A stretch of 64,000 nt of DNA from Nocardia bhagyanarayanae. Its GTDB lineage: Bacteria > Actinomycetota > Actinomycetes > Mycobacteriales > Mycobacteriaceae. The first letter of the stretch is position 1. Each line of letters opens with the position of its first letter. The translations under genes were made by a program, and so were the position numbers. Under the pieces are notes generated by a model that saw only the letters and a list, made by a program, of their open reading frames with translations, was not told where the DNA came from and made no database searches. This document shows, piece by piece, positions 47,863 to 60,143 of this stretch. The stretch is from contig NZ_VFPG01000001.1 of assembly GCF_006716565.1 (NCBI RefSeq), forward strand, positions 5,952,001 through 6,016,000, written 5' to 3'.

Positions 47863-48744
47863 ATGGCGACGCGGGAAGTGGTCCGGGCGGGCCGGTTCAC
47901 GAACATCTACGACCCGAGCGCGGGTGCGGCGCATCCGTGGTACATCAACGACCACACGATCGTGCGGGATCGGGACGGTGGATGGCACCTGTTCGGCATC
48001 ACTCACCCCGAGCCCGCCGATCCGTTCCACGAGATCGAATTCGCGCACGCCACCGCGCCCGATCTGCTCGGCCCGTGGACGAAACGTGAGCCCGCGCTGA
48101 CGGTCGATCCCGGCTACCACGGCGAGACCCACCTCTGGGCGCCGTACGTGATCCGTTCCGGCGCAACATACTTCATGTTCTACGCGGCTGGCGGACCGGA
48201 CCGCACCCGTGCGGCGATCAACCTGGCCACCTCCACCGACCTCGTCCGCTGGGAGCGCGCGCCCGGCGGGCCGCTGTTCCGCGACGGCTACGACGCCCGC
48301 GACCCGATGGTGCTGCGCATCGGCGAGAAATGGGCGATGTACTACTGCGCGACGAGCGCACCGGAGGGCGGTCACCACGTGGTCGCCTACCGGCTCAGTA
48401 CCGACCTGTGGCGCTGGGGCGAGCGGCACATCGCCTACGCCGATCCGACGATCGGCACCGAGGCGGGCAACACCGAGTCGCCGTTCGTGGTGCGCCACGA
48501 CGACCGCTGGTACCTGTTCATCGGCCCACGGCCGGGCTACGTCGGCACCGATATCTTCCGCAGCGACAACCCTTTTCGCTTCCGCATCGGCGACAAGATC
48601 GGGCACGTGGCCGCGCACGCCGCCGAGGTCGTCCGGCACGCGGACCGCTGGTGGGTCACCAGCGCGGGCTGGGGGCAGGGCGGTGTCCACCTCGCGCCGC
48701 TCACCTTCCCGCCGCCGCCCGCGGGCATCGCCGTGCCGCGCTGA
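47863..48744 (+). CDS. GH43/GH32-like five-bladed beta-propeller glycosidase
   Basis: Encodes 293 residues from the ATG at 47863. It has the three-acid arrangement of GH43/32 propellers: Asp30 in WYINDHTIV, Asp147 in DARDPMVLR, Glu205 in NTESPFVVR, along with HLWAPYVIRSGATYFMFYAAGG and STDLVRWERAPG strands. No signal peptide, so it would act on imported oligosaccharides, unless exported another way. Family members cleave arabinofuranosides, xylosides or fructofuranosides. First gene of the carbohydrate locus. Could also be an inactive binding propeller. Confidence 0.8.
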   Translation: MATREVVRAGRFTNIYDPSAGAAHPWYINDHTIVRDRDGGWHLFGITHPEPADPFHEIEFAHATAPDLLGPWTKREPALTVDPGYHGETHLWAPYVIRSGATYFMFYAAGGPDRTRAAINLATSTDLVRWERAPGGPLFRDGYDARDPMVLRIGEKWAMYYCATSAPEGGHHVVAYRLSTDLWRWGERHIAYADPTIGTEAGNTESPFVVRHDDRWYLFIGPRPGYVGTDIFRSDNPFRFRIGDKIGHVAAHAAEVVRHADRWWVTSAGWGQGGVHLAPLTFPPPPAGIAVPR

Positions 48745-48865
48745 CCACGGCGCCTGTGTGACGATCCCGGCTCCGTTACGCCGAAAGGTGCCGATCCGGC
48801 TGGGTCGCCTGGTATCTGTTGAGCGAGTCGACTATCCGCCCACCCACCCGCGGGGAGGTAACGGC

Positions 48866-50284
48866 ATGGCCCGTATCGGCGTGATCAGCGTTTCCGACGG
48901 CCGCGACTACGTGCACACCGGCATCGCGGACTTCATCCGGACCACCGAGGACCGTCTCGTCGCCGCACTGACCGCGGCGGGCCACGAGGTGGTGCGCGGC
49001 ACGGACATCATCAGCGACAACGCGCTGGCCGGATCGGTGGCGCGCGAGGTGGCCGCGGCCGGCGTCGACCTCACCGTGCTGCACTACGCCGTCTGGGCCT
49101 TCCCGCACTTCAGCATGCTCGCCGCCGGCGCGACACCCGGCCCGCTGCTGTTGCTCTCGAACATCGACCCGGTGCAGCCGGGAATGGTCGGCATGCTCGC
49201 CGCGGGTGGCGCGCTGGACCAGATCGGCCGCGCGCACACCCGGTTGTGGGGCGATCCGGAGGACGCCGCGCTGATCGAGGCGATCGGGGTGCGCGCCACG
49301 GCGGCGGCGGCCGTCTCGGCGTTGCGCGGCAGCACTTTCGGACGCTTCGGCGGGCGGCCGATGGGCATGAACACCGCCGTCGCCAACACCGATCAGTGGC
49401 AGCGGCTGTTCGGCATCGACGTGGAGGAGATCGACCAGTGGGAGATCGTGCGCCGGGCCGACCAGGCGGACGCCGGTGAGGCCAAGGCCGCGCGGGAGTG
49501 GCTGGAACGTCACGCCACCGTGCACTACGACGGCGCGAAACTCACCCCGGAGCTGCTGGAGCGCCAGATCCGCTCGTACCTGGCCGTGCGCGAGCTGATC
49601 GCGCAGTGGCGGCTGGATTTCTCGGGCATCAAGGGACAGCCGGAGCTCACCCAGTACTTCGCGACGATGGACGTCACCGAGGCGTTCCTCAACGACCCCT
49701 ACGACTGGAACGGCCCCAAGGAGACCCACGTCTGCGCCACCGAGGCCGACATGGACGGCGCGCTCACCATGCAGCTGCTCAAACACCTCGCGGGCACCCC
49801 CGTGCTGTTCGCCGACGTCCGGCACTATCACGCCGATCGCGACATCTGGGATCTGTGCAATTCCGGTCAGCACGCGACCTGGTTCGCCGCCCGCAGCGCC
49901 GATCCGGCGGAGAACCTGGCCCGGGTGCACCTCTACCCGGAGGTGTTCTTCTTTCCGGCGGGCGGCGCGTCGGTGCATCACCTCGCCGCGCCGGGCACGA
50001 TGACCCTGGCCCGGCTGACCCGCAAGGACGGCGACTACCGGATGCAGCTGATGCTGGGCGAGTTCGAGGCCTACGACGAGCAGACCAACGAATCGCTGAT
50101 GAAACAGTCCACCAGGGAGTGGCCGCACGCGTTCGCACGGCTCGACGCGCGCGCCGAGGATTTCCTGTCCCGCTTCGGCGCCAACCACATTCACGGCGTG
50201 CCGGGCGACCACCGTGCGGCGGTGCGTGCGACCTGCGAGTTGCTCGGCGTCGCGCTCGACGAGTTCACCCGCGACCCGCGATGA
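48866..50284 (+). CDS. L-fucose/L-arabinose (D-arabinose) isomerase-family protein
   Basis: Encodes 472 residues; the ATG at 48866 follows GGGGAGG. Candidate metal-site residues of the fucose-isomerase fold: Glu in CATEADMDGALT (near 293), Asp in LFADVRHYH (near 317) and His in NSGQHATWF (near 336). The N-terminal substrate half has VLHYAVWAFPHFSML and LLLLSNIDP. The family interconverts aldoses and ketoses (L-fucose, D-arabinose, L-arabinose). Together with an FGGY kinase next door, D-arabinose to D-ribulose is attractive; this is inference. Confidence 0.82.
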   Translation: MARIGVISVSDGRDYVHTGIADFIRTTEDRLVAALTAAGHEVVRGTDIISDNALAGSVAREVAAAGVDLTVLHYAVWAFPHFSMLAAGATPGPLLLLSNIDPVQPGMVGMLAAGGALDQIGRAHTRLWGDPEDAALIEAIGVRATAAAAVSALRGSTFGRFGGRPMGMNTAVANTDQWQRLFGIDVEEIDQWEIVRRADQADAGEAKAAREWLERHATVHYDGAKLTPELLERQIRSYLAVRELIAQWRLDFSGIKGQPELTQYFATMDVTEAFLNDPYDWNGPKETHVCATEADMDGALTMQLLKHLAGTPVLFADVRHYHADRDIWDLCNSGQHATWFAARSADPAENLARVHLYPEVFFFPAGGASVHHLAAPGTMTLARLTRKDGDYRMQLMLGEFEAYDEQTNESLMKQSTREWPHAFARLDARAEDFLSRFGANHIHGVPGDHRAAVRATCELLGVALDEFTRDPR

Positions 50285-50309
50285 CCCCGGCCGGTCAGCG
50301 GGAACGGTG

Positions 50310-51794
50310 GTGAGCGTGTTCCTCGGCATCGATATCGGCACCTCGGCCTCCAAGGGCGTGCTGGTGCGCGCGGACGGCACGGTCGTCGCGAGAGCCGAAC
50401 GCGCTCATGCCGTCTCGACGCCGCGTCCGGGGTGGGTGGAGCACGACGCGGAAGCGGTGTGGTGGTCGGATTTCATCGCGATCACCACCGAGCTGGTGGG
50501 GGCGGGCGGGGCCGACGTCGACGGGCTCGCGGTGTCCGGCATCGGGCCGTGCCTGCTGCCCGCCGACGGTGCCGGAAATCCGTTGCGGCCGGCCGTTCTC
50601 TACGGCGTCGACACCCGTGCGACCGCCGAAATCGCGGAACTGAACGCGGAATTCGGCGCGGACGCCGTGCTGGATCGGGCCGGTTCGCCGCTGACGAGTC
50701 AGGCGGTCGGACCCAAACTCCGCTGGCTGGCGCGGCACGAACCGCGGGTCGCCGACCGCACCGAGCTGCTGCTGATGGCGAGTTCCTTTCTGGTGCACCG
50801 CCTCACGGGCCGATACGTGCTCGATCACCAATCCGCCAGCCAGTGCGTGCCGCTCTACGATCTGCGCAAGCGCGAGTGGGCGGCGGACTGGGCCGAAGCA
50901 GTGGCGCCCGGCTTGGCGCTGCCCGAACTGGCGTGGCCCACCGAGATCGTCGGCCGGGTGAGCACGGCCGCCGCCGCGGCGACGGGCCTGCCCGCGGGTC
51001 TGCCGGTCACCACCGGAACGATCGACGCCTGGGCCGAGGCCGAGAGCGTCGGCGTGCGCGCACCCGGCGACGCCATGGTCATGTACGGCACCACCATGTT
51101 CCTCGTGCAGGTGCTGACCGAGCCGGTCCCGCATCCCGGTCTCTGGGGAACGTGCGGAACATGGCCAGGCACATACACTCTCGCGGCGGGCATGGCCACC
51201 TCCGGCGCGGTCACCGAATGGCTGCGCGATCTGGTCGGCGGCGACTACACCGAGCTGGTGACCGAGGCCGCCGCGGTGCCTGCGGGCAGCCGCGGCCTGC
51301 TGGCGCTCCCCTATTTCGCGGGCGAACGCACCCCGCTCTTCGATCCCGACGCGCGCGGCGTCGTGGCGGGACTCACGCTGCGCCACGGCCGCGCCGAGTT
51401 GTACCGCGCCGCGCTGGAGTCGATCGCCTACGGCGTCCGGCACAACCTGGAGGCGATGACCGAGGCGGGCGGGCAGGCGCGGCGGCTGGTCGCCGTCGGC
51501 GGCGGCACCAAGGGCGGACTGTGGACGCGGATCGTCTCCGAAGTCACCGGACTGCCCCAGCAGCTGCCCGCCGACACCGTAGGCGCCTGCCTCGGTGACG
51601 CCATGCTGGCCGCCACCGCGGCCGGTCTCGACACCTCGGCGTGGAACCCGGTGGCCGACACCGTCGTCCCCGATCCGGCGCGCACCGCCGACTACGAGCC
51701 GTACTACCGCCGCTATCGCGAGCTCTACACCGCGACCGCCGAGATCGCGCATTTCCTCGCGGCCGAGCAACGCAGAGCGCACCCGCCTTCCTGA
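50310..51794 (+). CDS. FGGY-family carbohydrate kinase
   Basis: Encodes about 494 residues. FGGY ATPase fold: FLGIDIGTSASKGVLV phosphate-1 motif, WWSDFIAITTELV, ASSFLVHRLTGRYVLDHQSAS, TTGTIDAWAEAESVG with the probable catalytic Asp, ALPYFAGERTPLFDPDARG, and VGGGTKGGLW adenosine motif. It is a ketose or polyol kinase such as ribulokinase or xylulokinase; exact sugar unknown. Start is one of three GTG codons (50307, 50310, 50316) 26-32 bases after the isomerase stop. Co-transcribed with the isomerase. Confidence 0.88.
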   Translation: MSVFLGIDIGTSASKGVLVRADGTVVARAERAHAVSTPRPGWVEHDAEAVWWSDFIAITTELVGAGGADVDGLAVSGIGPCLLPADGAGNPLRPAVLYGVDTRATAEIAELNAEFGADAVLDRAGSPLTSQAVGPKLRWLARHEPRVADRTELLLMASSFLVHRLTGRYVLDHQSASQCVPLYDLRKREWAADWAEAVAPGLALPELAWPTEIVGRVSTAAAAATGLPAGLPVTTGTIDAWAEAESVGVRAPGDAMVMYGTTMFLVQVLTEPVPHPGLWGTCGTWPGTYTLAAGMATSGAVTEWLRDLVGGDYTELVTEAAAVPAGSRGLLALPYFAGERTPLFDPDARGVVAGLTLRHGRAELYRAALESIAYGVRHNLEAMTEAGGQARRLVAVGGGTKGGLWTRIVSEVTGLPQQLPADTVGACLGDAMLAATAAGLDTSAWNPVADTVVPDPARTADYEPYYRRYRELYTATAEIAHFLAAEQRRAHPPS

Positions 51795-51848
51795 TCCTCG
51801 GACGTCGTGCCAGGATGCATGAGGCAGAACCGGCAGGGAGGACCCGAA

Positions 51849-52310
51849 TTGCCCACAGTGACCTTGACACAAGAGAACTTTCACCACGTCGTCAACGGCA
51901 ACCACATCGTGCTGATCGACTGGTGGGCGGGCTGGTGCGGCCCGTGCCGCCATTTCGCGCCCGTGTACGAGGCATCCTCCGATCTGCACCCCGACATCGT
52001 GCACGGCAAGGTCGACACCGAGGCCGAAGTAGCGCTGACGGCGATGGCGCAGGTCGACCGGTTCCCCACGCTGATGGCCTTCCGTGAGGGCCTGCTGGTG
52101 TTCTCCCAGCCGGGGTTCCTGCCCGCCGCCGATCTCGAGGAGGTCGTGCAGCAGGTGCGCTGGCTGGACATGGATCAGGTCCGCAAAGAACTGGCCGCGC
52201 AGGGCGGAGACCCACAGCAGGCCGAACCCGTCGGGGCGGCCCCCGCGGGCGCCGCCCGTATGGCCGGACCGGCTCGCGGACCCGTCCAGTACGGCTGGCC
52301 CGGGCTGTGA
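51849..52310 (+). CDS. Thioredoxin with C-terminal extension
   Basis: Encodes 153 residues from a TTG at 51849 placed seven bases after GGGAGG. Thioredoxin fold: VLIDWWAGWCGPCRHFAPVYEA with WCGPC redox pair, FPTLMAFREG with the cis-Pro. After about residue 105 an acidic helix (DMDQVRKELAAQ) and a Pro/Ala/Gly-rich tail follow. The stop overlaps the start of the DUF2961 gene (GTGA), so both are made together. A redox protein inside a sugar operon is odd; it may protect a thiol-sensitive partner. Confidence 0.9.
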   Translation: MPTVTLTQENFHHVVNGNHIVLIDWWAGWCGPCRHFAPVYEASSDLHPDIVHGKVDTEAEVALTAMAQVDRFPTLMAFREGLLVFSQPGFLPAADLEEVVQQVRWLDMDQVRKELAAQGGDPQQAEPVGAAPAGAARMAGPARGPVQYGWPGL

Positions 52311-53323
52311 CCGCGGCCGGGTCGCCATCGGAATTGTGGCGGCTCGATGCCGCGCGCACGCGGTCGATCAGCGCCGAGAACCCCACCGGCGCACCCGGCA
52401 TGGGAGCCCGCGCGACCGACGGCACCGGCGCACACGCCGCACGTGATCTGGGCGTCGGATGGAAGGTCTCGCCGTCCATCCTGCTCGATCCCGGCGACAC
52501 GGCGATCCTGGCCGACGTGACGGGCCCGGGTGTGGTCCGGCACTTCTGGCTGACGACCGACCGCACCGCACTCCGCGACCTGACCCTGCGCATGCACTGG
52601 GACGACGCGCCGCGACCAGCCGTGCGGCTGCCGCTCGGCGACTTCTTCTGCAACGCGTGGGACGAGCTCGCGCTGGTGAACTCGGAGATGATCGTGGTCG
52701 CCCCGGCGGGCGGTCTGAACAGCTACTGGCCCATGCCTTTTCGCCGACGCGCGCGGATCACGTTGCACAACGGCGCCGACCGGGCGGTGCCGGTGTACTA
52801 CCAGATCACCTACACCGAAGAGGACGTACCCGGCGACGCCGGCTACCTGCACGCCGCGTGGCGGCGCAGCGCACCGCTGGGCAGCCCGGCGGTGCACACC
52901 ATTCTCGACGACGTCACCGGGCGAGGGCGTTACGTGGGCACCTATCTCGCCATCCGGCCCGGCGACCCGGGGTGGTGGGGCGAGGGCGAGCTGAAGTTCT
53001 ACCTCGACGGCGACACCGACCACCCGAGCATCTGCGGCACCGGCACCGAGGACTACTTCGGCGGCGCGTGGAACTTCGACATGGACGGCCGCTACCGCAC
53101 CTACTCGACGCCGTATCTCGGTCTGCCCCAAGTGCTTCCGCCCGACCGATGCTACGAGGCCGACCAGCGTTTCGGCATGTACCGGTGGCACGTGCGCGAC
53201 CCGATCTGCTTCCACAGCGAGCTGCGCGTCACCGTGCAGGCGCTCGGCTGGTCGGATCCGGGGACCTACCTGCCGCTGGAGCGGGCCGAGATCGCCACCA
53301 CCGCATGGTGGTATCAGGGCTGA
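52307..53323 (+). CDS. DUF2961-family (GH172-type) glycosidase
   Basis: Encodes 338 residues from GTG at 52307. DUF2961 hallmarks: TRSISAENPTGAPGMGARA at the start, GPGVVRHFWLT, LPLGDFFCNAW, LNSYWPMPFRRRARI, YQITYTEE, and SICGTGTEDYFGGAW, with the Glu of GTEDY a presumed catalytic acid. DUF2961 proteins now form family GH172, with alpha-D-fructofuranosidase and exo-D-arabinofuranosidase activities; the latter act on mycobacterial arabinan. No signal peptide. Mycolata cell walls contain D-arabinan, so a role in arabinan turnover is plausible but unproven. Confidence 0.85.
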   Translation: MTAAGSPSELWRLDAARTRSISAENPTGAPGMGARATDGTGAHAARDLGVGWKVSPSILLDPGDTAILADVTGPGVVRHFWLTTDRTALRDLTLRMHWDDAPRPAVRLPLGDFFCNAWDELALVNSEMIVVAPAGGLNSYWPMPFRRRARITLHNGADRAVPVYYQITYTEEDVPGDAGYLHAAWRRSAPLGSPAVHTILDDVTGRGRYVGTYLAIRPGDPGWWGEGELKFYLDGDTDHPSICGTGTEDYFGGAWNFDMDGRYRTYSTPYLGLPQVLPPDRCYEADQRFGMYRWHVRDPICFHSELRVTVQALGWSDPGTYLPLERAEIATTAWWYQG

Positions 53324-53775
53324 CCCGGCAGCTCCAGCGCGGCGGCGTCCAGCTCGCCCATCAGCTCGTCGGCGCGCGCCAGCGCCAGATCCAGTCCGGT
53401 GCCGAGGTCGTCGAGCACCGTCAAACCTCCGAGCAGCCCGGCCAATTCGCTGCGCACCCGTTCGAGTTCCTCGATCGCCGGATCGACCGGAGACCAGACC
53501 GCGGCCTCGGACCATCCGGGAGCGTCGTCGAGCCAGCCGCACAGCAGGTCGCGGACCAGGCAGTGATCGGAGGTGTACAACTCGAATCGGCGCGCGTCCT
53601 CGCCGCGGCAGTGCTGGAGTTCGTACATGCCGTCGGGTAGGCGACGGGCCCGGATCCAGTCTCGTTCGCCCCTGGCCAATTCCAGGAACGGATGCTCGGG
53701 CGCGGCGGCGTCGAACTCGGTCCGAACCGCCGCCGGATCGGGATCGTCGGTTGGTCGACTCGGGTCCGCACGCAC
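53314..53775 (-). CDS. Hypothetical protein, antisense within the sugar locus
   Basis: Encodes 153 residues, probably from GTG at 53775. I recognise no family. It is acidic and soluble: PFLELARGERDWIRARRLPDG, YELQHCRGEDARRFELYTSD, LVRDLLCGWLDDAPGW, ending in helices with ELERVRSELAGLLGG. The pattern resembles small immunity-type or DUF proteins of actinobacteria, but that is only an impression. It lies on the opposite strand between the DUF2961 and dehydrogenase genes; its 3' end overlaps the DUF2961 gene by 10 bases. Confidence 0.6.
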   Translation of the reverse strand: MRADPSRPTDDPDPAAVRTEFDAAAPEHPFLELARGERDWIRARRLPDGMYELQHCRGEDARRFELYTSDHCLVRDLLCGWLDDAPGWSEAAVWSPVDPAIEELERVRSELAGLLGGLTVLDDLGTGLDLALARADELMGELDAAALELPGQP

Positions 53776-53852
53776 CGGGTCAGTTTGCCCGATCGCGGGC
53801 GCGAATACTCGAAATGCATCGCCGCACGACGCTCCGGGTGCAAGGTAGAGGG

Positions 53853-54857
53853 ATGCGCGCGGTGGTCATCGAGACGCCAGGTCGTTGTTCCGTGCAGACC
53901 GTACCGGATCCGGTCCCCGGTCCCGGCGCGGTGGTGGTGCGCGTCGCCGCTGTCGGTATTTGCGGCACCGACGCCCACATCGTGGACGGCGAGTTCCCGC
54001 CGACGCCATATCCGATCGTGCCCGGGCACGAGTTCGCGGGCGAGGTGGTCGCCGTCGGCAACGAGGTGGTGGGCGTCGTGATGGGCGATCGGGTCGCGGT
54101 GGATCCCTCGCTGTTCTGCGGGACCTGCCACTACTGCGCGATCGGCCGCGGCAATCTGTGCGAACGCTGGGGCGCGATCGGCGACACCGTGGACGGGGCG
54201 ATGGCCGAGTACGTCGCGGTGCCCGCCGCCAACTGCCACCGCCTGCCGGACTCGGTCTCGCTGAGCCACGGCGCGCTGGTGGAGCCGCTGTCCTGCGCGG
54301 TGCACGCCTTCGACGTGCTTCCCCGTGCGCTCGGCGCCCACTATCTGCTCTACGGCGCGGGCACCATGGGGCTGTTGATGCTCCAGTTGGCGCGGGTGGC
54401 GGGCGCGGCGTCGGTGTCGGTCGTCGATCTCGACACCGCGCGGCTGGCGGTGGCCGAGAAACTCGGCGCGGACGCTGTCGGGACCGAGGCCGACAGCTTC
54501 GACCGCCCGCAGGGGTGGGAGGTCGTCATCGACTGCACCGGCGCGATCCCCGCGATCGAAGACGGCTTGACCAGGGTCCGGCGCGGCGGGGTGTATCAGC
54601 AGTTCGGCGTCGCGCCAGGCGCGGCGACCGCCGCCATCTCCCCGTTCCGGATCTACAACGACGAGATCACCATCGTCGGTTCGATGGCGGTGCTGCACAG
54701 TTTCGGACGGGCGGTGGAGTTGATGGGCAAGGGCGTGATCGACGCCGACACCATGATCACCCACGGCTTCGCGCTCGACGAATTCGCCGACGCCCTAACG
54801 GCTTTCCGCGACGGCGTGGGCCGCAAGATCCAAATCCGGCCGGACCGCTCGGGATGA
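53853..54857 (+). CDS. Zinc-dependent medium-chain alcohol (polyol) dehydrogenase
   Basis: Encodes 334 residues; the ATG at 53853 follows AGGTAGAGGG. GICGTDAHI (catalytic-zinc Cys), PGHEFAGEVVAVG (GHE), CGTCHYCAIGRGNLC (structural-zinc Cys cluster), Rossmann motif GAGTMGLLM, then VVDLDTARLAVAEKLGADAVG with an Asp that favours NAD. This is the sorbitol/arabinitol/threonine dehydrogenase branch. Beside a xylulokinase-like gene it would most simply oxidise D-arabinitol or xylitol to D-xylulose; the sugar is inferred. Overlaps the next gene by four bases (ATGA). Confidence 0.88.
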   Translation: MRAVVIETPGRCSVQTVPDPVPGPGAVVVRVAAVGICGTDAHIVDGEFPPTPYPIVPGHEFAGEVVAVGNEVVGVVMGDRVAVDPSLFCGTCHYCAIGRGNLCERWGAIGDTVDGAMAEYVAVPAANCHRLPDSVSLSHGALVEPLSCAVHAFDVLPRALGAHYLLYGAGTMGLLMLQLARVAGAASVSVVDLDTARLAVAEKLGADAVGTEADSFDRPQGWEVVIDCTGAIPAIEDGLTRVRRGGVYQQFGVAPGAATAAISPFRIYNDEITIVGSMAVLHSFGRAVELMGKGVIDADTMITHGFALDEFADALTAFRDGVGRKIQIRPDRSG

Positions 54858-56251
54858 CGCGGGTGGCCGGGGTGGACAGCTCCACCCAGTCGTGCAAGAT
54901 CGTCGTCTGCGACGCGGCGACCGGCGCGGTGCTCGAGCGGGGCACCGCACCGCATCCCGACGGCACCGCGGTGCCCGCCGAAGCCTGGTGGAACGCGCTG
55001 CGCGCCGCGGGCGACGGGCTGCTCGACCGGGTCGACGCGATCGCGGTGGCCGGGCAGCAACACGGCATGGTGGCGCTGGACGCCGACGGCACACCTCTCC
55101 GAGACGCACTGCTGTGGAACGACGTTCGTTCGGCCGCGGCGGCCGAGGATCTGGTTCGGGAGCTCGGTGGTCCGAGCGCGTGGGCCGACGCCGTGGGCAG
55201 CGTGCCGGTCGCCGCGTTCACCGTCACCAAACTGCGCTGGTTCGCCGATCACGAACCCGAGCTCGCCGACCGCGCACGGCGCATACTCCTGCCGCACGAC
55301 TATCTGACCTGGCGGTTGCGCGGCCGCGACGCCGAACCCGTCACCGACCGCGGCGACGCGTCGGGCACCGGCTATTGGTCGCCGGCCTCGGAGCACTACC
55401 GAGAAGACCTGGTATCACTTGCTTTTCGTGGCCGAACACCCCTGCTACCTCGCGTGCTCGGTCCCGCCGAAATCGCGGGACACACCGCCTCGGGCGTGCT
55501 GGTCGCGGCGGGGACCGGCGACAATGCCGCGGCCGCACTGGGATTGGGGCTCGAGCCCGGCGACATCGTGGTGTCTCTTGGCACCAGCGGCACCGTCTAC
55601 GCGCGCGGCAGCGCTCCCAGCGCCGACCCGTCCGGCGCGATCGCGGGGTTCGCCGACGCGACCGGTTCGTTCCTCCCGTTGGTCGGCACGCTCAACGCGG
55701 CACGCGTGCTCACCGCCTCCGCGCAGCTTCTCGGCGTCGACCTACCCGGATTGGAAGCCCTTGCGGCCCAGGCTCCCCCGGGCGCCGAAGGACTCGTCCT
55801 GCTGCCCTACCTCACGGGCGAACGGACCCCCAACCTGCCGCACGCGGCGGGCAGCCTGCACGGTCTGCGTCCACGGACCATGCATCCCTGGCACCTCGCC
55901 CGCGCAACCTACGAGGGCATGCTCTGCAACATGGCCGATGCCCTGGACCGCCTCGTCGCCACCGGCATCGCACCGCGCCGCGTCCTCCTCATCGGCGGCG
56001 CCGCCCGTTCCTCGCTGGTCCGCGCGATCGCCGCGCAGATCTTCGGCCGTCCCGTCACGATCCCCGAACCCGAGGAATACGTCGCCCTCGGCGCGGCTCG
56101 TCAAGCCGCCTGGGCCCTCGCGGGTACGCCCGCTCCCCCGCCGTGGCCGACCCGCAGGGCCGCGGAAATCCACGTCTCCGCGGCGGGCGCCGCCACCGGT
56201 CGCGCCACCCGCGAGAGTTACGCCCGCGCGCGGGACGCCCTCTACGGCTGA
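54854..56251 (+). CDS. Xylulokinase-like FGGY kinase
   Basis: Encodes 465 residues. GVDSSTQSCKIVVCDA phosphate motif, AVAGQQHGMVALD (QQHG typical of xylulokinases), ALLWNDVRSAAAAEDLV, LPHDYLTWRLRG, GTGDNAAAALGLG with candidate catalytic Asp, VSLGTSGTVYARG, LPYLTGERTPNLPHAAG, LIGGAARSSLVRAIAAQIFGRPV. It probably phosphorylates D-xylulose to D-xylulose-5-phosphate for the pentose phosphate pathway. Coupled to the polyol dehydrogenase by ATGA overlap; a second FGGY kinase of different sequence lies at 50310. Confidence 0.9.
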   Translation: MTRVAGVDSSTQSCKIVVCDAATGAVLERGTAPHPDGTAVPAEAWWNALRAAGDGLLDRVDAIAVAGQQHGMVALDADGTPLRDALLWNDVRSAAAAEDLVRELGGPSAWADAVGSVPVAAFTVTKLRWFADHEPELADRARRILLPHDYLTWRLRGRDAEPVTDRGDASGTGYWSPASEHYREDLVSLAFRGRTPLLPRVLGPAEIAGHTASGVLVAAGTGDNAAAALGLGLEPGDIVVSLGTSGTVYARGSAPSADPSGAIAGFADATGSFLPLVGTLNAARVLTASAQLLGVDLPGLEALAAQAPPGAEGLVLLPYLTGERTPNLPHAAGSLHGLRPRTMHPWHLARATYEGMLCNMADALDRLVATGIAPRRVLLIGGAARSSLVRAIAAQIFGRPVTIPEPEEYVALGAARQAAWALAGTPAPPPWPTRRAAEIHVSAAGAATGRATRESYARARDALYG

Positions 56252-58633: not shown

Positions 58634-60143
58634 ATGCGCACTGTCAAAGGCTGTACCGACCATGTCGTGGTGGTAGGGGCGGGGCTGGCGGGTCTGTCGG
58701 CTGCCATCCATCTGGCCGGACGAGGGCGCGCGGTGACAGTGATCGAACGCGCCACTGTCCCGGGCGGGCGGATGGGTCGGCTGGATCTGGACGGCTGTCG
58801 AATCGACACCGGTCCGACTGTGTTGACGATGCCCGAGCTGATCGATGAGATCTTCGACGCGGTCGGAGAACAGACCGGAGATCGTCTGGAATTGATGCCG
58901 GTCGCGCCGGCCTATCGCGCCCGGTTCGCCGACGGACGCTTCCTCGACGTGCACAGCGACGAGCCAACCATGGTGCACGCGATCACCGAGTTTGCGGGCG
59001 CCGACCAAGCCGAAGGCTATCGGCGACTGCGTGAATGGCTGAGGCGGCTCTACGACGTCGAGTTCGACCGCTTCATCGCAACGAATTACGACTCGCCGCG
59101 CTCGATGCTGACTCCGGCGCTCGCCGAGTTGGCGGGCCTGGGCGGCTTCGGCAACTGGGATCGGCAGGTCGCCCGGTTCATCACCGATCCCGACCTGCGG
59201 CGCGTGTTCACCTTCCAGTCGCTGTATGCCGGTGTCGCACCCGACCGCGCCCGCCGTGATCGCCTACATGGACACGATGGCGGGCGTGTACTTCCCGAAG
59301 GGCGGTATGCGCGCACTGCCCGACGCGCTCGCCGCCGCGGCCGAAGCCGCCGGTGTGCGATTCCGCTACCAGACCACCGTTACGGCATTGGCGCGCAGAG
59401 GCGCCCGCGTTCATGCCGTCCACACCGATCGAGGCGACCGAATAGCCTGTGACGCAGTGGTTCTGACAACCGAAAGACATCGCACCTACGCACTGCTCGG
59501 ACATCGTTCACGGCGCCCGGTTCCGGTGGTCGCAGCCCCCTCCGCGGCGATACTGCACGTCTCGTGCGATCCGCTCGCGATCCCGCATCATTCTCTGCTG
59601 TTCGGCGCGGCCTGGGAGTCGGCCTTTCACGACATCATCGGTGCGGGCCGGGTCCCGTCCGATCCATCGCTGCTGGTGACTCGGCCTACGGCAGGCGACC
59701 CCGAGTTGGCGCCGGAGGGACGGGATCTGCTCTACATCCTCGCGCCGGTCCCGAATTTGGAAAAAGGACGAATCGATTGGCCGCGCTTCGGTCACGATTA
59801 CGCCGAGCATGTTCTCGATATCGCCCGAAAACGTCTGGGAAAATCGGCGTTGCGAGACGTCCGGCTCCTGCGCATGGTCACGCCTACGGATTGGGCCGCC
59901 CAAGACATGCTCGCAGGCAGTCCGTTTGCTCTGGCACATACCTTTGCCCAAACCGGACCCTTTCGGCCCGCCAACATGATTCGCGGTATCGACAATGCCG
60001 TGCTCGCGGGCGCGTCGACCGTGCCAGGTGTCGGTATCCCGCCGGTGCTGATCTCCGGGCGTCTAGCCGCCGACCGTGTCACCGGGCCGGTGCGCTCCGG
60101 CACGGCCCGCCGTCCGGGAAATCCCGCACACTCCTACCACTGA
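58634..60143 (+). pseudogene. crtI: Phytoene desaturase, frameshifted
   Basis: The ATG at 58634 starts VVVVGAGLAGLSAAIHLAGRG (FAD motif), IERATVPGGRMGRL, DTGPTVLTMPELID and FTFQSLYAGVAP in one frame, which then runs on as non-homologous sequence to 59452. From about 59250 the CrtI homology resumes in another frame: APAVIAYMDTMAGVYFPKGG, VVLTTERHRTYALLG, TPTDWAAQDMLAGSPFALAH and AGASTVPGVGIPPVLISGRL, to the stop at 60143. The residues that normally join GVAPDRA to AVIAYMD are missing, so about 8-11 bases were probably deleted near GACCGCGCCCGCC. As read, the protein is split and inactive; phytoene would not be desaturated here. Confidence 0.85.

Follow-up and report, generated by a model that had tools for sequence, protein, structure and literature searches.

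A probable D-arabinan salvage operon in Nocardia bhagyanarayanae

Genes of the locus and their conservation

In the window, the stretch of 64,000 nucleotides at 5.95-6.02 Mb of the N. bhagyanarayanae genome that was analyzed, the plus strand encodes a five-bladed propeller protein resembling GH43 and GH32N domains (GH43L, 47863-48744), an isomerase with three FucI Pfam domains (48866-50284), a kinase with FGGY_N and FGGY_C domains (FGGY1, ~50310-51794), a thioredoxin with a C-terminal extension (Trx, PF00085, 72 bits, ~51849-52310), and a DUF2961 protein (GH172, PF11175, 52307-53323). The first four genes are separated by ~121, 25, and 24-54 bp, the last gap being set by the Trx start, and a 4-bp overlap joins Trx to GH172. 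A small minus-strand gene (53314-53775), whose product has no Pfam or NCBIfam match, overlaps the end of GH172 and parts these five genes from a Zn-dependent polyol-type dehydrogenase (ZnDH, 53853-54857, ADH_N and ADH_zinc_N) and a xylulokinase (FGGY2, 54854-56251), which lie on the plus strand and overlap by 4 bp. Searches with Pfam and NCBIfam recovered every gene named in a first-pass annotation of this DNA with the right domains, all seven on the plus strand.

A scan of the ten proteins encoded between 46003 and 56842 found no sugar importer, and the locus holds no transporter, regulator, or endo-enzyme. The presence of GH172, isomerase, and kinase in one locus is a feature that the window locus shares with the Microbacterium-type D-arabinan locus; GH183, another such feature, is absent from the window locus, and four DUF4185/GH183 matches lie elsewhere in the genome, at 1.47, 1.76, 1.77, and 1.87 Mb of contig C1. 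There is no PF04685 (GH116) match anywhere in this genome.

We compared 38 Nocardia loci, some of them from two or more strains of one species. They are the Nocardia members of a set of 80 GH172 loci retained from 396, and all 38 therefore carry GH172. A gene was scored as present if, in the fetched stretch, a match covered 20% or more of the query at an identity of 60% or more; for Trx and the small protein, 40% identity was enough. GH43L, isomerase, FGGY1, and GH172 are all together in 26 of the 38 loci, and two of the 12 others end at contig ends (L015, L026). The small protein is present in 20 loci and Trx in 22, and we found no mechanism that links Trx to a pathway.

Across the order, genes were called co-located when both matches were on one contig with their first bases no more than 15 kb apart, with expectations assuming genomes of 7 Mb. 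The isomerase is co-located with GH172 in 20 of the 32 genomes carrying it (~0.2 expected), usually with FGGY1, and most of the pairs viewed involve GH172s that are secreted and belong to other families (f14, f15, f4), which form a deep separate clade in the GH172 tree. GH43L lies within 15 kb of GH172 for 15 of 25 genes (~0.2 expected), counted from 26 rows because two G435 rows are one broken gene. Five of 100 DUF2961 rows were left out (four G181 fragments and one weak G240 row), and those genomes have neither partner. The genome searches for isomerase, GH172, and GH43L scored no more than some of the first-look candidates per genome (4 to 6), so misses are possible. The grouping of GH43L, isomerase, FGGY1, and GH172 is more than chance.

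GH172, the isomerase, and FGGY1

GH172 scored 287.7 bits against DUF2961 (gathering score 27), and no other DUF2961 protein was found in its genome. Against 8ic8, a structure named exo-alpha-D-arabinofuranosidase that we take to be the characterized enzyme ExoMA1, it scored 395 bits at 56% identity; the other three solved GH172 sequences scored 119-126 bits at 30-33% identity, with 119 bits and 33% for alphaFFase1. The first-pass annotation had named clustering with fructofuranosidases as evidence against its reading, and the tree instead placed GH172 with ExoMA1, in a 12-row clade containing 8ic8 (support 100/100) and apart from alphaFFase1, a long branch whose own position is unsure. Likeness to the Bifidobacterium dentium enzyme alphaFFase1 (PMC8605356) extends to its acid/base E270 and nucleophile E291, which are conserved as glutamate in all 23 aligned rows, and to W267, D292, W298, and Y187, which are also conserved in GH172; besides score and identity, the two differ at the +1 subsite lysine K147, which falls in a gap in GH172 and in ExoMA1. 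Reading specificity from this subsite was dropped, since K147 lies in the gap and E85 in a poorly aligned part. No signal peptide was seen by eye in GH172.

Two N. brasiliensis assemblies each contain one DUF2961 protein, which is 80% identical to the window GH172. Its mass of 38.1 kDa is consistent with the 40.2 kDa of the tagged monomer of NocGH172 (120,507/3; PMC10115798), an N. brasiliensis enzyme that the available part of that study describes as active on arabinogalactan, with GH172 enzymes described there as lacking activity on galactan. ExoMA1 is described as more specific for alpha-D-arabinofuranose (alpha-D-Araf) than alphaFFase1 (PMC10509167, seen in part). The window GH172 is thus a putative exo-alpha-D-arabinofuranosidase, an assignment that is well supported as a part of the pathway proposed below. 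That the genus depends on it for wall recycling as an essential gene is unlikely, because three of the ten genomes listed for the genus, its own included, were found to carry it.

The motifs around E337 and D361 of E. coli FucI, presumably metal ligands, align in the isomerase; the third ligand does not align. A function as sulfoquinovose isomerase was rejected, since the score was 38 bits and the cut-off is 700. FGGY1 is XylB-like, with 303.8 bits against TIGR01312 XylB, below the cut-off of 380.25. The surroundings of the isomerase were read in 10 of the 32 genomes, six chosen without and four with GH172 nearby, and FGGY1 was in the same 18-19 kb stretch in nine of these ten distant loci; three further isomerase loci were viewed (G173, G248, G484). 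One relative (G025, locus L014) has GH183, isomerase (67%), FGGY1 (61%), a sugar porter, GH172, and GH43L within ~10 kb. Another (G161, locus L147) has isomerase and FGGY1 clustered with GH116, the family of a published exo-beta-D-arabinofuranosidase (PMC10509167, seen in part).

Eleven of the 38 Nocardia loci have no isomerase. When these 11 genomes were searched whole, nothing matched in four of them (N. vulneris, two assemblies of N. brasiliensis, and Nocardia sp. alder85J), five gave only weak matches, and two a good match elsewhere; in the congeners G065 and G133, only isomerase fragments are left. GH43L is kept in nine of the 11 loci and FGGY1 in five, so either the locus can do without the isomerase or FGGY1 also acts on another substrate. 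FGGY1 is gone from six of the 38 loci, all among the 11, and isomerase loss is unsupported as a sign of FGGY1 independence, since FGGY1 was lost only where the isomerase was lost.

The propeller protein GH43L

GH43L scored above the Pfam cut-offs for both GH43 (35.7 bits) and GH32N (34.6 bits), and its predicted model (pLDDT 91.6) matched GH32, GH43, GH117, GH130, and GH159 folds in a structure search. The GH32, GH43, GH159, and GH117 matches are separated by only a few Z units, too close for GH43L to be named GH32 or GH43 by fold. It shares the five-bladed propeller and a conserved, candidate catalytic Asp/Asp/Glu set with GH32 levanases and invertases and with GH43 arabinanases and differs from them in sequence, with identities of about 11-18% in structural alignments. 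In an alignment of the window copy with 29 of 120 listed homologues (1718 in all), D30, R146-D147-P148, and E205, which include the candidate acids, are invariant in 30 of 30 rows. We take its WxND and RDP motifs to be as in GH32 and its ESPF motif as in GH43. No signal peptide was seen by eye.

In G204, G216, and G246, a single open frame contains both GH43L and GH172, and both domains were confirmed for G216. The neighbors of GH43L are isomerase and FGGY1 in L014, L128, and L129; outside Nocardia, it is near the isomerase in only three of 24 genes (four of 25 including the window). Only GH43L fragments are left in G065. We rejected the general rule that GH43L simply replaces GH116: matches to GH116 above the cut-off occur in five of 22 genomes with GH43L and in five of 43 others, and G351 has GH116, GH172, and GH43L together within ~13 kb.

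We propose GH43L, the novel part of the locus, as a candidate exo-beta-D-arabinofuranosidase. Whether it founds a new glycoside hydrolase group, a GH32/GH43 propeller cutting the beta-D-Araf ends of mycobacterial-type arabinan and unrelated to the GH116 enzyme, is a tentative reading to which we give somewhat less than an even chance. The main rival reading, that GH43L is an exo-beta-D-galactofuranosidase and attacks the galactan of arabinogalactan, would leave the remaining pathway unchanged and seems unlikely: GH43L adjoins isomerase and FGGY1 in the three loci named above and is fused to or near GH172, whose family members are described as inactive on galactan (PMC10115798, seen in part). 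The invariant RDP also argues against a galactofuranosidase. This motif is GH32-type. Few D-arabinan-cutting enzymes are known, and GH43L would be a concrete candidate for cutting the beta ends in Nocardia, in a genome where no GH116 was found; the fusion with GH172 in one actinobacterial genus would then be a two-headed arabinan enzyme.

Proposed route and related systems

The locus is probably a D-arabinan salvage operon. Protein families, catalytic residues, and gene neighborhoods were computed, and from them we infer every substrate, the location, the transporter, and the order of steps. Proteins of GH183, the endo-D-arabinanase family, whose genes lie at other sites in this genome, would make D-arabino-oligosaccharides outside the cell, and these would be taken up by a transporter. 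In the cytoplasm, GH172 would take off alpha-D-Araf and GH43L terminal beta-D-Araf, the proposed D-arabinose isomerase would convert D-arabinose to D-ribulose, and FGGY1, the proposed D-ribulokinase, would yield D-ribulose-5-phosphate. The first-pass annotation had suggested that D-arabinose from arabinan enters via D-ribulose, and this part of the route is well supported because of the GH172 clade, the N. brasiliensis match, and the order-wide neighborhoods of isomerase and GH172, together with the relative that has GH183 in its cluster. Against the proposal stand the 11 Nocardia loci that lack the isomerase, the rarity of GH43L near the isomerase outside Nocardia, the lack of a transporter, regulator, or endo-enzyme in the locus, and the separate clade of most GH172s paired with the isomerase. 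The first-pass annotation was mistaken in its view that these parts belong to no known pathway: two papers of 2023 (PMC10115798 and PMC10509167, both seen in part) describe loci for D-arabinan that contain both GH172 and an isomerase, and most of the D-arabinose route has already been worked out in other bacteria. D-Arabinan is the hallmark polymer of mycobacterial-type walls. If the proposal is true, a D-arabinose catabolic route exists inside organisms with D-arabinan in their own wall, and recycling and foraging are therefore testable alternatives.

FucI-family enzymes accept several aldoses, and GH43L is about equally like GH32 levanases and GH43 L-arabinanases. Together with the membership of alphaFFase1 in GH172 (PMC8605356, seen in part), this would fit breakdown of an alpha-D-fructofuranoside or of an L-arabinose or L-fucose glycan, which we nevertheless regard as improbable: GH172 groups with the more alpha-D-Araf-specific ExoMA1 (PMC10509167), fructose would not need an aldose isomerase, and among relatives the L014 cluster includes GH183 and the isomerase cluster of L147 includes GH116. 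The extent of the proposed D-arabinan operon is a separate matter. ZnDH, whose best PDB matches are 4ej6 (putative) and sorbitol dehydrogenase, and FGGY2, with 404.7 bits against TIGR01312 xylulokinase (curated cut-off 380.25), may give a second entry from a pentitol through D-xylulose to xylulose-5-phosphate; such a D-arabinitol branch is conjecture drawn from family names. We see an even chance that two unrelated modules stand side by side here, one for D-arabinan (47863-53323) and one for a pentitol (53853-56251). The minus-strand gene stands between them, ZnDH is near GH172 in only 16 of the 38 Nocardia loci, and the ten distant isomerase loci lack a labeled FGGY2 or a close ZnDH (one 33% ZnDH match, L149); against this, 34 of the 38 Nocardia loci retain FGGY2 next to GH172, compared with 27 that retain the isomerase.

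The 8ic8 enzyme, presumably ExoMA1 of the Microbacterium arabinogalactanolyticum D-arabinan locus, connects that locus to ours through its 56% identity to the Nocardia GH172. The available part of the Microbacterium study (PMC10509167) describes GH172, isomerase, and kinase in one locus and notes that the Nocardia wall itself contains D-Araf. Both loci have exo-enzymes without signal sequence, and both have an isomerase and a kinase leading to D-ribulose-5-phosphate, which in Nocardia is the predicted product. Unlike the Microbacterium locus, the Nocardia locus lacks GH183, GH116, and an ABC importer and has the GH43/32-like propeller instead. With N. brasiliensis, the comparison covers GH172 only, through the 80% identical DUF2961 protein and NocGH172 (PMC10115798). 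GH172 and isomerase also come together in Dysgonomonas, where, in the part of the same study that is available, PUL42 of Dysgonomonas gadei combines GH172 exo-D-arabinofuranosidases with a predicted fucose isomerase, as in the Nocardia locus.

Organization of the locus

By GH172 identity, the closest named relatives of the 7.56-Mb genome holding the window are Nocardia amikacinitolerans (95%), N. lijiangensis (94%), and N. xishanensis (91%). Five plus-strand genes run uninterrupted from 47863 to 53323 and encode a GH43/GH32-like propeller proposed as exo-beta-D-arabinofuranosidase (GH43L, 47863..48744), a FucI-family isomerase (48866..50284), the proposed D-ribulokinase FGGY1 (50310..51794), a thioredoxin (51849..52310), and the DUF2961 protein GH172 (52307..53323). 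A small minus-strand gene separates them from an overlapping plus-strand pair, the Zn-dependent polyol-type dehydrogenase ZnDH (53853..54857) and the xylulokinase-like FGGY2 (54854..56251), and the sugar genes lie on one strand much as the first-pass annotation described. The protein encoded at 53314-53775 on the minus strand matched nothing in Pfam or NCBIfam and occurs in 20 of 38 Nocardia loci. The thioredoxin gene is found in 22 of these 38; several of the loci are rearranged and still keep it close to GH43L or FGGY1, and comparison of the Nocardia loci gave no reason for its retention beside sugar genes. Neither flank looks related to the sugar genes: upstream lie argS, a gene for a tyrosine phosphatase, and one resembling PPDK, and downstream an acetyltransferase gene and carotenoid-type genes. 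A carotenoid-type desaturase (Amino_oxidase, 58667-60143) lies in two overlapping frames, with the N-terminal part near 58667-59281 and the C-terminal part at 59226-60143, representing a broken gene or a sequencing error.

GH172 and its partners

GH172 is the sole DUF2961 match of the genome. Its best solved-structure match is 8ic8, named exo-alpha-D-arabinofuranosidase (395 bits, 56% identity), compared with 119-126 bits and 30-33% identity for the three other solved GH172 structures, including the fructofuranosidase alphaFFase1. From its name and 12 chains, we infer that 8ic8 is the Microbacterium enzyme ExoMA1, reported as a dodecamer in PMC10509167. In a 23-row tree, where PDB rows comprise matched stretches only, GH172 and 8ic8 grouped in a clade of 12 rows with full support, apart from alphaFFase1, a long branch that drew a program warning; the phylogenetic placement proposed earlier favored a D-arabinofuranosidase. 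Two N. brasiliensis genomes, N. vulneris, and alder85J each encode one DUF2961 protein. That of N. brasiliensis is 80% identical to GH172, and its 38.1 kDa agrees with the reported NocGH172 trimer of 120,507 Da, provided that the latter was tagged. Species and copy number suggest that it is the published NocGH172, which acts on pNP-alpha-D-Araf, arabinogalactan, and LAM according to PMC10115798.

Inspection by eye revealed no evident signal peptide in GH43L or GH172, and hence both should act in the cytoplasm. Secreted GH172s from genomes of three other families (f4, f14, and f15) formed a distinct deep clade in the tree, and lying beside the isomerase does not prove that they act on D-arabinan there. 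Genome G216 (L138, 6386-11407) combines GH172 and GH43-like domains in a single 1673-residue protein with a signal-like stretch, seen by eye, close to its start; in G204 and G246, too, the two share one open frame. The arabinan cluster of G025 encodes, between GH172 and GH43L (L014, 6907-8730), a protein of 607 residues that matches no Pfam family and, judged by eye, starts with a Tat-like signal; it is a candidate new arabinan-active protein.

Isomerase context and loss

The isomerase carries all three FucI-family domains. Its nearest solved relatives, L-fucose and D-arabinose isomerases, match at only 58-66 bits, and its specificity is therefore judged from context. Among 397 genomes of the order, 32 contain the isomerase (E <= 1e-60) and 58 contain DUF2961; in 20 of the 32 isomerase genomes, no more than 15 kb separates the two (about 0.2 expected). 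Ten isomerase loci were read fully, with genes labeled by similarity to those of L128, and the same stretch contained FGGY1 in nine, a ribose-type ABC importer in nine, and a LacI-type regulator in seven. In G161, GH116 clusters with the isomerase and FGGY1, and a published exo-beta-D-Araf-ase belongs to GH116 (PMC10509167). In G025, from another genus of the same family, GH172 and GH43L cluster with GH183, the isomerase, FGGY1, and a sugar porter. The association of one isomerase with partners for alpha- as well as beta-D-arabinan cleavage points to D-arabinose as its substrate.

Eleven of the 38 Nocardia loci lack the isomerase. Nine of these 11 keep GH43L and five keep FGGY1; FGGY1 loss in Nocardia is confined to them (6/6). 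We searched these 11 genomes whole, together with that of L043, whose isomerase copy has a stop codon. Four of the 11 gave no match, five weak matches only, and two a good match elsewhere. Two congeners (L012 in G133, L013 in G065) retain only isomerase fragments, and GH43L is also fragmentary in G065. Given these losses, the step may be served by another isomerase or replaced by an oxidoreductive branch, or else the assignment is incomplete. In L012 and L013, FGGY1, ZnDH, and FGGY2 matches are nearly full-length despite the isomerase decay. Six GH43L loci without the usual isomerase (L131, L132, L135, L136, L142, and L143) encode a divergent fucose-isomerase-like protein, whose piece in L131 scores 25 bits with Fucose_iso_C, below the cut-off.

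FGGY2 scores over the xylulokinase cut-off and lies near GH172 in 34 of the 38 Nocardia loci, ZnDH in 16. Together they could plausibly form a route from a pentitol to D-xylulose, with D-arabinitol one of several candidate substrates.

Relation to known pathways

In the GH172 and D-arabinan literature searched, a scope that excluded most subscription papers, no account of the GH43/32-like partner came up. The first-pass annotation knew of no described pathway joining these parts; the D-arabinan pathway is, however, already known in outline. The isomerase followed by FGGY1 would perform in Nocardia the same two steps, isomerase then kinase, that PMC10509167 proposes for Microbacterium.
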